Shown here in pieces: positions 57,077 to 63,797 of a stretch of 64,000 nucleotides of DNA. The stretch covers positions 992,001 through 1,056,000 of the forward strand of contig NZ_CP133265.1 of the NCBI RefSeq assembly GCF_030915505.1, given 5' to 3'. The notes under the pieces were generated by a model that saw only the letters and a list, made by a program, of their open reading frames with translations, did no database searches and had not been told where the DNA came from. Origin of the DNA: Neobacillus sp. OS1-2. Lineage in GTDB: Bacteria; Bacillota; Bacilli; Bacillales; Cytobacillaceae. Position 1 is the stretch's first letter, and each line of letters begins with the position of its first letter. The translations under genes were made by a program, and so were the position numbers.

Positions 57077-57205
57077 GTTGATTTCCGCTCCAGGTGCTTC
57101 GCTTTCCGCGGGCGTGCCGGGGAGCCTCCTCGTCGCTTCGCTCCTGCGGGGTCTCCCCTGCCCCGTACTCCCGCAGGAGTCTTCGCACCTTCCGCTCCAA
57201 TCAAC
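57077..57205 (-). repeat. 130-bp GC-rich dispersed element, copy A
   Basis: On the minus strand it begins GTTGATTGGAGCGGAAGG and ends GGAGCGGAAATCAAC; GTTGATT and AATCAAC are terminal inverted repeats. The interior (GACTCCTGCGGGAG, GACCCCGCAGGAGCG, GAGGAGGCTCCCC) folds strongly. It is much richer in GC than the genes around it. The rest of the gap 56960-57463 shows no gene. Confidence 0.85.
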
Positions 57206-57463: not shown

Positions 57464-57946
57464 TTAAACATATGCTACGAAAGAGCTATCTAAATTCCAC
57501 AATTTATGTCCCAAATTTTCTATTAATTCATTTGCTCTTTTTTCAATGTTATCCGGAAGATTATCTTTACTGAAATACTTAAGCCTAAGACTCTCCCCAT
57601 CATTCATTTCTAATGTTCCACATACATTTTTTGCACGAAATAGGTTAATTACACTATATGTTTCATCACCATTTGGATACTGAAAATAAAAACGTGGACC
57701 AGAAAAAACACCTATTAACTCAAACTGATTCGCTACAAGTCCCGTTTCTTCTTTCAATTCACGAGAAGCAGCTTCTTCTAAAGTTTCACTTAGTTCCATT
57801 GAACCGCCAGGTAAGCCCCAATCTAATGTATCTGAGCGATGTTGAAAAAGAATTTCCTTTTTCTCATTTATAACAAGTATCGTTGCTCCAACACTTATAA
57901 TTGGTCTACTACCGATATATTTTCGTAATTCAGTGATGTACCCCAC
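57464..57946 (-). CDS. Nudix hydrolase
   Basis: The 160-residue protein has the complete Nudix box, GGSMELSETLEEAASRELKE followed by ETGL, which binds the catalytic metal. It hydrolyses a nucleoside diphosphate linked to another group; substrate unknown. The start is GTG after GGAGGGGG. It is flanked by two copies of a 130-bp element in opposite orientation. Confidence 0.9.
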   Translation of the reverse strand: MGYITELRKYIGSRPIISVGATILVINEKKEILFQHRSDTLDWGLPGGSMELSETLEEAASRELKEETGLVANQFELIGVFSGPRFYFQYPNGDETYSVINLFRAKNVCGTLEMNDGESLRLKYFSKDNLPDNIEKRANELIENLGHKLWNLDSSFVAYV

Positions 57947-58098: not shown

Positions 58099-58228
58099 GT
58101 TGATTGGAGCGGAAGGTGCGAGACTCCTGCGGGATCAGCGGGACAGGTGAGACCCCACAGGCGCTCTAGCGCCGAGGAGGCTCACCGCCCGCCCCGCGGA
58201 AAGCGAGCATCCTGGAGCGGAAATCAAC
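58099..58228 (+). repeat. 130-bp GC-rich dispersed element, copy B
   Basis: Same family as the element at 57077-57205 but on the plus strand: GTTGATTGGAGCGGAAGGTG at the start, TGGAGCGGAAATCAAC at the end. It is 130 bp long, against 129 bp for copy A. Confidence 0.87.
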
Positions 58229-58363: not shown

Positions 58364-58435
58364 TATTTATACATACCATTGATAAAATATGTTCACTTTT
58401 TATACATACCAATTACTTGTAATTGGCAATATGAT
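58364..58435 (+). promoter_or_regulatory. argR promoter region with two ARG-box-like sites and a palindrome
   Basis: TATTTATACA (58364-58373) and TTTTTATACA (58397-58406) are exactly 33 bp apart, each in the AT-rich context of an 18-bp ARG box (about 9 of 12 consensus positions). CCAATTAC-TT-GTAATTGG (58409-58426) is a perfect palindrome just before the -10 TATGAT (58430-58435). Confidence 0.5.
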
Positions 58436-58471: not shown

Positions 58472-58924
58472 ATGAATAAAGAGATGAGATTGCAAACGAT
58501 TTCAAGACTTATCTCTGAACATGAGATAAAGACACAGGAAGAACTCGGGCAATGGCTTTTTGACAGTGGCTTACAGGTGACACAAGCAACAATCTCTAGA
58601 GACATCCGCGAGTTGAAGTTGATTAAGGTCCCTTCCAAAGATGGGAGTCAGAAGTATAGTTTTAAAATAGATCAGGATCATTTAATTTCTGAAAAGCTGC
58701 GCCATAAATTGCGGGATGCCCTTGTTAGTATGGAGATCATTCAATATTTCGTTATCATTAAAACGCTGCCTGGACATGCCCATGCGTTTGGAGCATTGCT
58801 GGATTCGATGGAGATTGATGGGAAAGCGGGAACGATTTGCGGGAATGACACGTGTTTAATTATTTGCCGTTCCCCTAAAGAGGCAGTTGACATTAAACAA
58901 AAGATCGATTTATATCAAGAATAA
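58472..58924 (+). CDS. argR: ArgR-family arginine-type repressor
   Basis: The 150-residue protein has the N-terminal winged helix with QVTQATISRDIREL and the C-terminal ligand-binding, hexamer-forming domain. The family motif GDDT is changed to GNDT here: Asn125-Asp126. The first Asp of this motif contacts the arginine side chain in other members, so ligand preference may differ. The gene heads the arc cluster and is followed 23 bp later by arcR. It may be a second ArgR paralogue. Confidence 0.92.
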   Translation: MNKEMRLQTISRLISEHEIKTQEELGQWLFDSGLQVTQATISRDIRELKLIKVPSKDGSQKYSFKIDQDHLISEKLRHKLRDALVSMEIIQYFVIIKTLPGHAHAFGALLDSMEIDGKAGTICGNDTCLIICRSPKEAVDIKQKIDLYQE

Positions 58925-58947: not shown

Positions 58948-59646
58948 ATGCTCAACTCAGCTGTGATCAATATGGATGTACTTGCGGATTTACAACAATT
59001 CGATACTTTTTCCAACCTTTCAGCTAAAACATTGAAAAAATACCTGCCTTATTTTTATTTTCGCAGCTACAAGAAAAACCAATGTCTGTTTATGCAGGGT
59101 GACCCGCGCGACAAAATCTTTTTTCTGCTCGATGGGTATGTGATGTTTGAACGTGCCAGTGAAGAGGGCAGTATGCTTTATTTAGACGTTATTAAAAAAA
59201 ATCAAATGTTTCCCACTGGCGGGATTTTTAAGGATAAGGTCTACCAAGATACCGCCATCGCCGTGACCGATGTTCATTTGTACTTCATTCAAACCCATAT
59301 AGTAGAGGAACTGCTTAAGTCGAATCCCAAGCAATTACTCTATATTATTTCGAAACTCTCAGATATTCTCAACCTACATCAAAAACGTGTACAGCGAATC
59401 CTCATCCCGCATGCCCAGGAACGGGTTTTGCATTCGATTCAATTTTTAATGGAAGATCTAGGCGTGAAGGATGGCTGTGAGATTGTGATTCCTTGTCCCC
59501 TTACAGCAGCTGATATTTCCAAGATATCTGGAACAACCAGGGAAACCGTTAGTTTGCTGATTAATCAGTTGAAAAGAGAAAAGATCCTCTCGGTAACTTC
59601 CAAAAAACTGAGAATCCATCAACCGGATTATTTTAATGAACTATAA
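58948..59646 (+). CDS. arcR: Crp/Fnr-family activator ArcR
   Basis: The 232-residue protein has a cyclic-nucleotide-type beta-barrel (about residues 20-130) and a C-terminal HTH with the recognition helix GTTRETVSLLINQLK, which has the Arg-Glu pair of CRP. There is no Fnr-type N-terminal cysteine cluster. In B. licheniformis, ArcR activates the arginine deiminase operon under anaerobiosis. It lies between argR and arcA on the same strand. Confidence 0.88.
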   Translation: MLNSAVINMDVLADLQQFDTFSNLSAKTLKKYLPYFYFRSYKKNQCLFMQGDPRDKIFFLLDGYVMFERASEEGSMLYLDVIKKNQMFPTGGIFKDKVYQDTAIAVTDVHLYFIQTHIVEELLKSNPKQLLYIISKLSDILNLHQKRVQRILIPHAQERVLHSIQFLMEDLGVKDGCEIVIPCPLTAADISKISGTTRETVSLLINQLKREKILSVTSKKLRIHQPDYFNEL

Positions 59647-59936: not shown

Positions 59937-61223
59937 ATGAGCAGTATAACAGAAATGACTACTCCCCAGGATATACAAAATCAATTAAAGCACCCGATCC
60001 ATGTTACCTCAGAAATCGGTAGTTTAAGAACCGTTTTACTCAAGAGGCCTGGTAAAGAGGTAGAGAATCTAACACCTGAATACCTGCAACGACTTTTATT
60101 CGATGATATTCCTTATTTACCGATTATCCAGAGAGAGCATGATTATTTTGCCGAGACATTAAAAAACCGAGGCATAGAAGTCCTATACCTCGAAAAGTTG
60201 GTTGTCGAAACCTTAAGTAATGTAGAGATAAAAAAACAATTTGTTGATGATATATTACGAGAAAGCAAGGCTAATGTCAACGGTGCAGCCAGTGTATTAA
60301 AGGAATATCTTCTATCTTTTTCGACGGCAGACATGGTTGACAAAGTGATGAGCGGGATTCTTAAGAGAGAGATAGAACCCGAGAAAAAATCGCACCTTTA
60401 TGAATTGATGGAGGATCACTATCCATTTTATCTTGACCCGATGCCAAACCTTTATTTCACCCGTGACCCTGCAGCAAGTATCGGAAACGGCTTATCGATT
60501 AACCGAATGAGGGAACCGGCACGAAGGCGTGAATCATTATTCATGCAATACATTATAAACCATCATCCACGATTTGCTAGACACAATGTTCCTGTTTGGT
60601 TAGACCGTGACTTTGGCTTCTCGATTGAAGGCGGTGATGAACTCGTACTAAATGATGAAGTAGTGGCCATTGGCGTTTCTGCCCGTACATCTGCACGAGC
60701 GATTGAAAAATTAGCGCTAAATTTATTTAAGAGACAGGACACTATTAAAAAAGTAGTTGCTGTAGAAATTCCTAAATGTCGCGCCTTTATGCATCTTGAT
60801 ACAGTGTTTACGATGGTAGATTACGATAAATTCACCATCCACCCTGAAATACAAGGACCACAAGGCAATATGAATGTATATATTCTGGAAAAAGGTGCAG
60901 ATGATGCGCACGTTACGATCACACATCGTACAAATCTTCAAGAAACCTTAAAAGAGGTTTTAGGATTAAATGAATTGATTTTAATCCCATGCGGCGGTGG
61001 TGATGAAATCGCAGCTTCTCGTGAGCAATGGAATGATGGCTCCAATACTTTAGCGATTGCACCAGGCGTCGTTGTCACCTATGACCGGAACTACATCTCC
61101 AATGATTTATTACGTCAGCACGGTATAGAGGTCCTTGAAATCTCAAGCTCGGAATTATCCCGTGGCCGTGGGGGCCCACGCTGCATGAGCATGCCGATTG
61201 TCAGAGAGGATTTACACAAATAA
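59937..61223 (+). CDS. arcA: Arginine deiminase ArcA
   Basis: The 428-residue protein hydrolyses arginine to citrulline and ammonia. The catalytic Cys is in [11 protein letters not shown] at the C-terminus; [11 protein letters not shown] and [12 protein letters not shown] carry the other active-site residues (Asp, His). Length is slightly above the usual 410. TAAAGGAGG precedes the ATG. First gene of the structural arc genes. Confidence 0.97.
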
Positions 61224-61249
61224 TTTTAACAAAAAGGAGAATGATCAAT

Positions 61250-62260
61250 ATGTTAATGACTGCACCGAAATTTAATGGGAAAAGCTTTCTTTGCGAAAAG
61301 GATTTTTCAAAAGAGGAATTTGTTTATTTGATCGATTTAGCGATGAAATTAAAAGATGAGAAAAAGCATGGAATTACCCATCGTCATCTTGAAGGAAAGA
61401 ACATTGCGCTGCTTTTTGAAAAGCCATCCACTCGCACACGCTGTGCTTTCACGGTAGCCTGTACCGACCTAGGGGCGCATCCTGAATATCTAGGAAAAGA
61501 TGATATTCAGCTTGGGAAAAAGGAATCGGTGGAAGATACCGCAAAGGTTTTGGGCCGCATGTTTGACGGCATCGAGTTCCGTGGCTTCGAGCACAAAAAG
61601 GTAGAAATGCTAGCGGAGCATTCGGGAGTGCCGGTTTGGAATGGTCTAACCGATTTATGGCATCCAACCCAGACACTTGCTGATTTCTTAACCGTAAAAG
61701 AAAACTTTGGCCGCCTCGAAGGAATTAAATTCGTCTATGTTGGTGATGGTAGAAATAATGTAGCCAACAGTCTGCTCGTTGGCGGTGCCCTTGTTGGTAT
61801 GGACGTTCGAATTTGTGCACCTGAATCATTGTTCCCAGCACCGGAAATCGTGGAATTGGCTCGTGAGTTGGCCGAAAAATCAGGCGGACGTGTAACGGTT
61901 ACCGCTGATGTTGAAGAAGGTGTTTCAGGTGCAGATGTCATTTATACCGATGTGTGGGTGTCAATGGGCGAAGAATCGAAGTTCGCAGAACGGATCGCCC
62001 TTCTCTCTCCGTACCAAGTGACAATGGACATGGTGAAAATGACAGGCAATGACAACATGATATTCCTGCACTGCCTCCCTGCCTTCCATGACCAGGAAAC
62101 AAGCTATGGGAAGGACATATTCGAAAAACATGGGCTTGCTGAAATGGAAGTAACTGACGAAGTATTCCGCGGCGAGCATTCAAAGGTATTTGATCAAGCT
62201 GAAAATAGAATGCATACGATTAAAGCGGTGATGGCAGCAACACTTGGTCACTTAGAATAA
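61250..62260 (+). CDS. arcB: Ornithine carbamoyltransferase, catabolic (ArcB)
   Basis: The 336-residue protein has the carbamoyl-phosphate motif STRTR ([12 protein letters not shown]), HPTQ ([11 protein letters not shown]) and the ornithine-binding HCLPAFHD. In the arc cluster it converts citrulline and phosphate to ornithine and carbamoyl phosphate. AAGGAG lies ten bases before the ATG at 61250; an ATG three codons earlier is too close. It starts 26 bp after arcA. Confidence 0.95.
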
Positions 62261-62399: not shown

Positions 62400-62453
62400 A
62401 TATTTGATTGGTAAGCAAAGACAGCTAAAATAACTGTGAAATGGAGGAATAGT

Positions 62454-63797
62454 ATGGACCATTTAATTCCAGAACTCCGCAAAATAGAGAAGGGTTTCCA
62501 TCAATCGTTAATCGAGCTAATTGAGATCCCAAGTGTGATAAATGAAACCGACAAGGATACCCCTTTCGGAAAACACATTGACCAAGCCTTGAAAAAGACT
62601 CTAGAGATTTGCGATCAGCTGGGATTTCGCACCTATTACGATCCAAAGGGATATTACGGCTATGCTGAAATCGGTGCCGGCGAAGAAATGATTGGTATTC
62701 TTGGACATCTTGATGTCGTTCCACCCGGAAGCAGCGAAGAATGGGAAACACCTCCCTTTCAAGCAGCCATCATCGACGGAAACATGTTTGGCAGAGGGAC
62801 ACAGGATGACAAGGGTCCGACACTTGCCGCCCTTTTTGCTACGAAAGCGTTAATGAATCTTGGAATAAATTTTAATAAACGTGTCCGCTTTATTTTTGGA
62901 ACAGATGAAGAAACACTGTGGCGTTGCATGAACCGCTATTGCAAATTGGAGGAAATTCCAAGCATGGGCTTTGCTCCAGACTCCGTTTTCCCGCTTGTTT
63001 ACGCTGAAAAAGGACTGCTCCAGCTTCATTTAGAAGGGAAAAATGAAACAAAACTTCGACTGCAAGCTGGCAATGCCTTTAATGCGGTGCCCGACATGGC
63101 AACCTATACGGGTGAAAAACAACAAGAATTGAAGGCTGCATTGGATAGGTTTGGGTTCGCTTATGAAGCAACCAACGATAATGTGAATGTACTAGGTAAA
63201 GCGGTACATGCCCAAGTAACTGAAAAAGGGATCAACGCCATTAATCGCCTTTTAATCGGATTAAAGCACATCGGCTACACTTCCAAAATCATTGAATTCA
63301 TTAATGACATGGTCGAAGAGGATCCATTTGCGATGAAGATTTTTGACGAATGCGAAGATGAAGCATCCGGAAAATTGAAATTCAATGTTGGAAAAATAGA
63401 GTTAAATGAGGAAATCGAGAGGCTCTCGGTTGATATTCGTATCCCGGTGACAGCCGATAAACAAGTGATTGTAAATACACTCACACAAATTGCTAAGGAA
63501 TACGGATTAGAGTACAAAGAGTTCGACTATTTAAAATCAATCTATGTGCCGAAGGAACACTTCTTAATTCAGACATTAATGAATGTGTATCAAGAGGTAA
63601 CTGGTGATCTCGTTTCCGAGCCCATCTCGTCAGGCGGGGCCACTTATGCTAGAGCCATGAACAACTTTGTTGCCTTTGGAGCTATTTTCCCACAGCAAAT
63701 GAAAACGGAGCATCAGCCGAACGAACACATTGAGCTTGAGGAAATGTTTAAGGCGATGCACATTTACGCCAAAGCCATCTACCATTTAACCCGTTAA
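62454..63797 (+). CDS. M20 family dipeptidase (PepV/Sapep type)
   Basis: The 447-residue protein shows the M20 zinc ligands: GHLDVV (His, Asp), RGTQDDKGP (Asp), GTDEETLWR (the catalytic Glu pair) and APDSVFPLVYAEKG (Asp). It is close to the Xaa-His dipeptidase/Sapep group and not to ArgE by length. In an arc cluster it could supply arginine from peptides; this is inference. ATG at 62454 has GGAGG six bases upstream; an earlier ATG has no site. Confidence 0.87.
   Translation: MDHLIPELRKIEKGFHQSLIELIEIPSVINETDKDTPFGKHIDQALKKTLEICDQLGFRTYYDPKGYYGYAEIGAGEEMIGILGHLDVVPPGSSEEWETPPFQAAIIDGNMFGRGTQDDKGPTLAALFATKALMNLGINFNKRVRFIFGTDEETLWRCMNRYCKLEEIPSMGFAPDSVFPLVYAEKGLLQLHLEGKNETKLRLQAGNAFNAVPDMATYTGEKQQELKAALDRFGFAYEATNDNVNVLGKAVHAQVTEKGINAINRLLIGLKHIGYTSKIIEFINDMVEEDPFAMKIFDECEDEASGKLKFNVGKIELNEEIERLSVDIRIPVTADKQVIVNTLTQIAKEYGLEYKEFDYLKSIYVPKEHFLIQTLMNVYQEVTGDLVSEPISSGGATYARAMNNFVAFGAIFPQQMKTEHQPNEHIELEEMFKAMHIYAKAIYHLTR

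Follow-up and report, generated by a model that had tools for sequence, protein, structure and literature searches.

Asn125 in place of the arginine-contacting Asp in an arc-linked ArgR paralogue of Neobacillus sp. OS1-2

Arginine repressors and their ligand pocket

In the AhrC of Bacillus subtilis, the arginine pocket takes Gln104, Asp111 and Thr121 from one subunit, a second subunit contributes Asp125 (through its backbone), Asp126 and Thr127 (PMC7248756), and the O-delta of Asp125 of a third subunit (monomer F) contacts N-eta, the guanidino nitrogens of the ligand (PMC7248756, Table 2). This Asp125 corresponds to Asp128 in the E. coli ArgR (PMC7248756), the numbering used in the earlier note on this DNA, and Asp128 has been placed in the other trimer, across the trimer interface (PMC2880562). 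The number of ArgR paralogues in a genome can range from one to three (PMC12341379), and the ArgR/AhrC pair of Lactococcus lactis has been described as a DNA binder and an arginine sensor (PMC6586332).

The arc cluster and its repressor

The window, a stretch of 64,000 nucleotides of Neobacillus sp. OS1-2 (NZ_CP133265.1, positions 992,001 to 1,056,000), holds an argR gene at 58472..58924 (+), the reading frame of which starts with ATG at 58472 and encodes an arc-linked ArgR paralogue of 150 aa. The product carries both domains of the ArgR/AhrC family above the Pfam cut-off, Arg_repressor (PF01316, 72 bits) and Arg_repressor_C (PF02863, 81.2 bits), and scores 133.2 bits with TIGR01529 (cut-off 130.45). 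It stays below the AhrC equivalog model NF003281 (159.8 bits against a cut-off of 182), and aligns with B. subtilis AhrC (1F9N) over residues 1-145 with an E value of 2.4e-38. Gly124-Asp125-Asp126-Thr127 of AhrC lies opposite Gly124-Asn125-Asp126-Thr127 in this alignment, the latter encoded by GGG AAT GAC ACG at 58841..58852 (+), with the AAT codon of Asn125, which replaces the guanidino-contacting Asp, at 58844..58846 (+). The reading of GNDT instead of the GDD(T) ligand motif with Asp125 is thus borne out by the codons as well as by the alignment. The lost Asp is also the arginine-contacting one, as had been claimed, its side chain in AhrC meeting the guanidino group (PMC7248756, Table 2).

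The window ArgR retains the other contacts Asp111, Asp126 and Thr127. Judged from the sequence, Asn125 removes the guanidino-pairing carboxylate and leaves the contacts to the alpha-amino group. Arginine could still be the ligand at a lower affinity, and the arc repressor would then react only to high arginine, suiting a breakdown pathway. Such an explanation is consistent with the change of a single contact residue of Table 2, besides position 104, itself variable in AhrC; however, the Phe or Tyr found at 125 in related arc-linked copies would abolish the contact entirely, and weakened arginine binding is considered quite unlikely.

The repressor had been said to sit beside arginine deiminase, and the genes downstream of argR agree with this. 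They comprise arcR (58948..59646, +), a Crp/Fnr-type regulator with Pfam cNMP_binding and HTH_Crp_2 domains, arcA for arginine deiminase (59937..61223, +; Pfam ADI, E 2e-149) and arcB for ornithine carbamoyltransferase (61241..62260, +; TIGR00658, 435.2 bits). An M20-family dipeptidase-like gene of the cluster lies at 62436..63797 (+; NF005542, 657.5 bits), and past the window end there are a DcuC-family carrier, an amino acid permease and a gene of the amino acid kinase family, which by its place is probably carbamate kinase. The ArcA of Bacillus sp. MM2020_4 shows 100% identity to the window ArcA. Two genomes of the genus carry a further arcA (G476:C371:262513-263748 and G478:C68:42536-43765), with 64-65% identity to the window ArcA. 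An inverted pair of similar stretches (57077-57205 and 58099-58228; arms of 61 nt at 84% and 23 nt at 100%), which resembles a short interspersed repeat in two copies, flanks a gene at 57464-57946 that we take to be Nudix-like.

A candidate operator block, TTCACTTTTTATACAT, lies upstream of argR at 58392..58407 (+). Its pattern, TTCAYnnTTTRTWCAT about 80 bases before argR, is present in 13 of 19 upstream regions of the group and gave zero matches in base shuffles; it was built post hoc, after some of the sequences had been viewed, and serves as a lead only, to a candidate site with no experimental precedent. The ARG-box consensus has 10 matches across the window against 11.1 expected by chance, and zero in the upstream stretches of argR and arcA with two mismatches allowed. 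The sole one-mismatch match in the window lies inside arcA, at 60530.

Two ArgR places in all are found in the source genome, the window copy and L001, which reads GDDT, scores 271.1 bits with NF003281 (cut-off 182) and is, by motif and score, the usual AhrC. Its adjoining gene looks like one for a TlyA-type RNA methyltransferase, presumably. The GDDT of this second copy supports the view that the window ArgR is a paralogue separate from the biosynthetic AhrC, and an Asp125-bearing AhrC is thereby present in the same genome as the arc copy, as in a two-repressor system of the L. lactis type.

A gene for arcA was found in 18 of the 61 genomes of the genus, and 19 hold an ArgR closely related to that of the window (E at most 1e-42), namely all 18 with arcA and G010. 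Both genes share one contig in 17 of the 18 genomes, and in G463 each is close to the end of a contig of its own; this co-occurrence says little on function, because argR belongs to the arc cluster. The informative point is taken to be the Asn in every arc copy and the Asp in the single copy outside. All 18 ArgRs from arcA-bearing genomes read GNDT, so that Asn125 is not a matter of chance, and the ArgR of G010 (L009/L180) reads GDDV. G010 has zero arcA matches genome-wide, and neither arcA nor arcR was found in the 18 kb around its ArgR gene (L180:11111-11584); the neighbours of this gene resemble, by sequence, an amino acid permease and an M20 amidohydrolase. L009 has Asp125 yet carries Glu88, Phe106 and Gly117 like the arc copies of its group. 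The GDDT form gave exactly one match in each of the 61 genomes in a pattern count, as distinct from a gene-by-gene reading.

Residue 125 across arc clusters and biosynthetic copies

Eighty loci were kept by an ArcA similarity search, flanks of up to 6 kb were fetched on each side (some shortened by contig ends), and ArgR was sought in them by profile, not by motif. A nearby ArgR was present in 30 of the 80 loci and Asp125 in none of these 30, residue 125 being Asn in 20, Phe in 4, Tyr in 4 and His in 2; L033, L034 and L035 of these loci overlap the genus sample (G488, G481 and G478), and L107 and L112 duplicate other rows, with which they were merged in the tree. All 15 copies from Bacillales (Bacillus, Mesobacillus, Paenibacillus, B. 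licheniformis relatives and Staphylococcus) have Asn. The 15 from Lactobacillales have Asn (5), Phe (4), Tyr (4) or His (2), the last three belonging to enterococci and many lactobacilli. Asp111 and Asp126 are retained in 30/30. Among the copies read, a single further paralogue bearing Asp125 accompanies the arc-linked copy in every one of the 30 genomes; this count leaves aside three weak extra matches (G049, G051 and G060; E about 4e-4).

The class sample served as a control: one ArgR gene was read in each of 60 genomes covering many families, and Asp125 was found in 60/60; these genes are the higher-scoring among the matches listed and lean towards typical AhrC. An arcA match occurs in 8 of the 60 control genomes, none of them within 100 kb of the control ArgR gene. 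Asn at 125 is thus not common in biosynthetic ArgR (0/60), a point on which the earlier note had let its idea depend. The CGNDT pattern occurs in 2 of 398 genomes across the class, the window's own and G442, where the match falls outside any ArgR. Two AhrC-type genes of one genus (L253 and L257; f47 g57) read GDNT, with Asn at 126 instead of 125.

Twelve further genomes were chosen from about 36 that combine arcA with at least two ArgR places, linkage being defined as the same contig and within about 7 kb of arcA. An arcA-linked ArgR was obtained from 11 of them, the linkage in G310 not being readable, and residue 125 is Asn in four, Phe in one and Asp in six. The four Asn copies look like Bacillales copies. 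Five arc-linked copies read GDDV, and by inference their genomes look like Streptococcus; the sixth Asp125 copy, in G181, reads GDDT. The five streptococcus-like genomes have more than one ArgR copy with Asp125 each, and their arc-linked copies have Asp111, Asp125 and Asp126 all together. A general rule that arc-linked ArgRs always lack Asp125, which had held in 30/30 at first, was broken by these 6 of 11 further copies and given up; the first 30 loci missed the exceptions because the 80 ArcA-similarity loci did not reach those genomes. The loss of Asp125 is therefore read as a feature that some arc clusters show and others do not. The alignment of arc ArgRs against AhrC of the same genomes, proposed in the earlier note, supports the expected split between arc copy and biosynthetic copy in Bacillales, where the distinction by residue 125 holds in the sequences compared, but elsewhere it gives Asn, Phe, Tyr, His or Asp.

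A tree of 101 rows places the arc-linked copies in several groups (Neobacillus/Mesobacillus; Paenibacillus with B. licheniformis relatives; Staphylococcus; Enterococcus with lactobacilli) and the AhrC-type copies in one group of 51 rows with support of 91/80; its deep forks are weak and long branches are present. Forcing all 49 rows without Asp125 into one clade, a group named after the tree had been built, was borderline rejected (p-AU 0.042), and keeping the 18 Neobacillus/Mesobacillus-type rows together without L009 was not rejected (p 0.452). Asp125 may thus have disappeared in a single event or in several, and L009 may either have regained or have kept it.

A position scan found Asn125 in 31/31 Bacillales arc-type ArgRs (18 of Neobacillus/Mesobacillus, 5 of Paenibacillus/B. 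licheniformis and 8 of Staphylococcus type); clade membership and arc linkage defined this set, from which L009 and repeat rows (L181, L186 and L189, for example) were excluded, and two of its eight Staphylococcus-type sequences, L171 and L173, are extra copies whose arc linkage is not established. Among the positions that differ between the groups, only 125 separates all 31 copies from every AhrC in the set, and position 41 (Val to Ile) nearly does so. Asn125 persists where Thr127 became Met, Val or Ala. The AhrC side of the scan (Asp125 in 40/40) was rejected as proof, its group having been selected by the GDDT motif, which makes it circular; the 30-genome paralogue comparison and the 60 class-wide ArgR genes are the non-circular controls.

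The invariance of Asn in the Bacillales arc-type ArgRs (31 sequences and 4/4 further genomes) is the best argument for citrulline as the ligand, an idea in which Asn125 would hydrogen-bond the neutral ureido group of citrulline, which ArcA produces, and the repressor would report arginine deiminase flux. The persistence of Asn125 beside an altered Thr127 points the same way, as does the Asp125 of a relative outside any arc cluster (L009/L180), which is one case, and the conserved alpha-amino contacts Asp111 and Asp126 make an amino-acid ligand plausible. The D128N form of E. coli ArgR, reportedly described by Niersbach and others in 1998, is said to be a citrulline-responding superrepressor and would be a precedent. 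To our knowledge, this ligand switch is so far known only as an E. coli laboratory mutant, and no passage on D128N or on a citrulline-binding ArgR was found in a literature search. However, enterococcus and many lactobacillus arc-linked ArgRs have Phe, Tyr or His at 125 and the streptococcus-like ones have Asp, and a tight turn could also be the reason why Asn stays. Citrulline sensing by the window ArgR is judged unlikely, and so is the wider proposal of natural citrulline sensing by the arc-linked ArgRs of Bacillales, in which Asn125 is fixed across three divergent groups of sequences and which would report arginine deiminase flux.

In 11 lactobacillus genomes, the ArgR that keeps Asp125 (L163, L164, L167-L170, L174 and L176-L179) is without Asp111, the reverse of the pattern in the arc-linked copies of the same genomes, and 10 of the 11 are also without Asp126, a count that rests on a gapless alignment. 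A mixed hexamer with a split arginine site would explain this lactobacillus pattern, the arc ArgR trimer providing Asp111 and Asp126 and the AhrC trimer supplying Asp125 from across. The origin of the Asp125 O-delta in a third subunit (PMC7248756, Table 2), the position of E. coli Asp128 in the other trimer (PMC2880562) and the reciprocal losses in 11/11 genomes are in line with such a site. Against it, AhrC of Bacillales is complete, with no visible need for sharing there, the enterococcus copy with Asp125 retains Asp111 and Asp126 in 4/4 genomes, the streptococcus-like arc-linked copies are complete for all three residues, and the Asp126 losses hinge on the gapless alignment. For the window ArgR a split site is held to be distinctly unlikely.

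Readings of the Asn125 repressor and comparison with known systems

The window ArgR probably does not sense arginine in the usual way. Without the Asp125 carboxylate, the salt bridge across the trimers to the guanidino group of arginine would be impossible, and the window ArgR alone would be unresponsive to arginine. It would then bind the arc operators either ligand-free or jointly with AhrC, which would supply the arginine signal as reported for the L. lactis ArgR/AhrC pair. The reading tentatively preferred, at slightly below an even chance, is thus a local arc regulator specialised away from AhrC, with ligand-free or AhrC-assisted operator binding. The variety of replacements at 125 (20 Asn, 4 Phe, 4 Tyr and 2 His) is better explained by a lost guanidino contact than by a single new ligand shared by all; Phe, Tyr and His in the relatives favour the loss of lone arginine sensing as the common theme, and suggest a wider one, perhaps with AhrC as the sensor.

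Several observations count against this reading. The Bacillales replacement is always Asn (15/15, an overlapping set of 31/31, and 4/4 further genomes that look like Bacillales), a uniformity that loss by itself would not require. The arc-linked copies of the streptococcus-like genomes (5/5) and of G181 keep Asp125, which also weighs against it. No ARG-box match lies upstream of argR or arcA. In S. aureus, a mutant of argR1, which lies beside the native arc operon, was without a growth phenotype in the absence of arginine (PMC9239276), and by analogy this too may speak against the preferred reading. Mutation of argR2, upstream of the second arc operon, allowed growth without arginine (PMC9239276), an outcome compatible with a repressor that acts in the absence of this amino acid. 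Overall, the interpretation given in the earlier note is partly supported.

The ligands of ArgR paralogues are often assumed from model proteins, and here a single residue splits the arc copy from the biosynthetic copy in Bacillales. Residue 125 gives a testable statement on which ArgR copy senses what, with a bearing on how arginine breakdown gets switched on in Bacillus and Staphylococcus; for S. aureus ArgR2, further studies of its role have been called for (PMC9239276).

As compared with B. subtilis AhrC (1F9N, 2P5M), the window ArgR is homologous over residues 1-145, including the DNA-binding and hexamer domains, and keeps Asp111, Thr121, Cys123, Asp126 and Thr127, but differs in Asn for Asp125, in its lower NF003281 score and in its arc-cluster location. 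It resembles the L. lactis pair in having an ArgR gene upstream of the arc operon together with a separate AhrC, a likeness of gene arrangement. The E. coli ArgR D128N has the same substitution at the same place, but is a laboratory mutant. ArgR1 and ArgR2 of S. aureus are each encoded upstream of an arginine deiminase operon (PMC9239276). The arc-linked Staphylococcus copies read here, which include S. schweitzeri and not S. aureus, have Gly-Asn-Asp at 124-126 in 6/6 like the window ArgR, but form a separate, long-branched clade in the tree.
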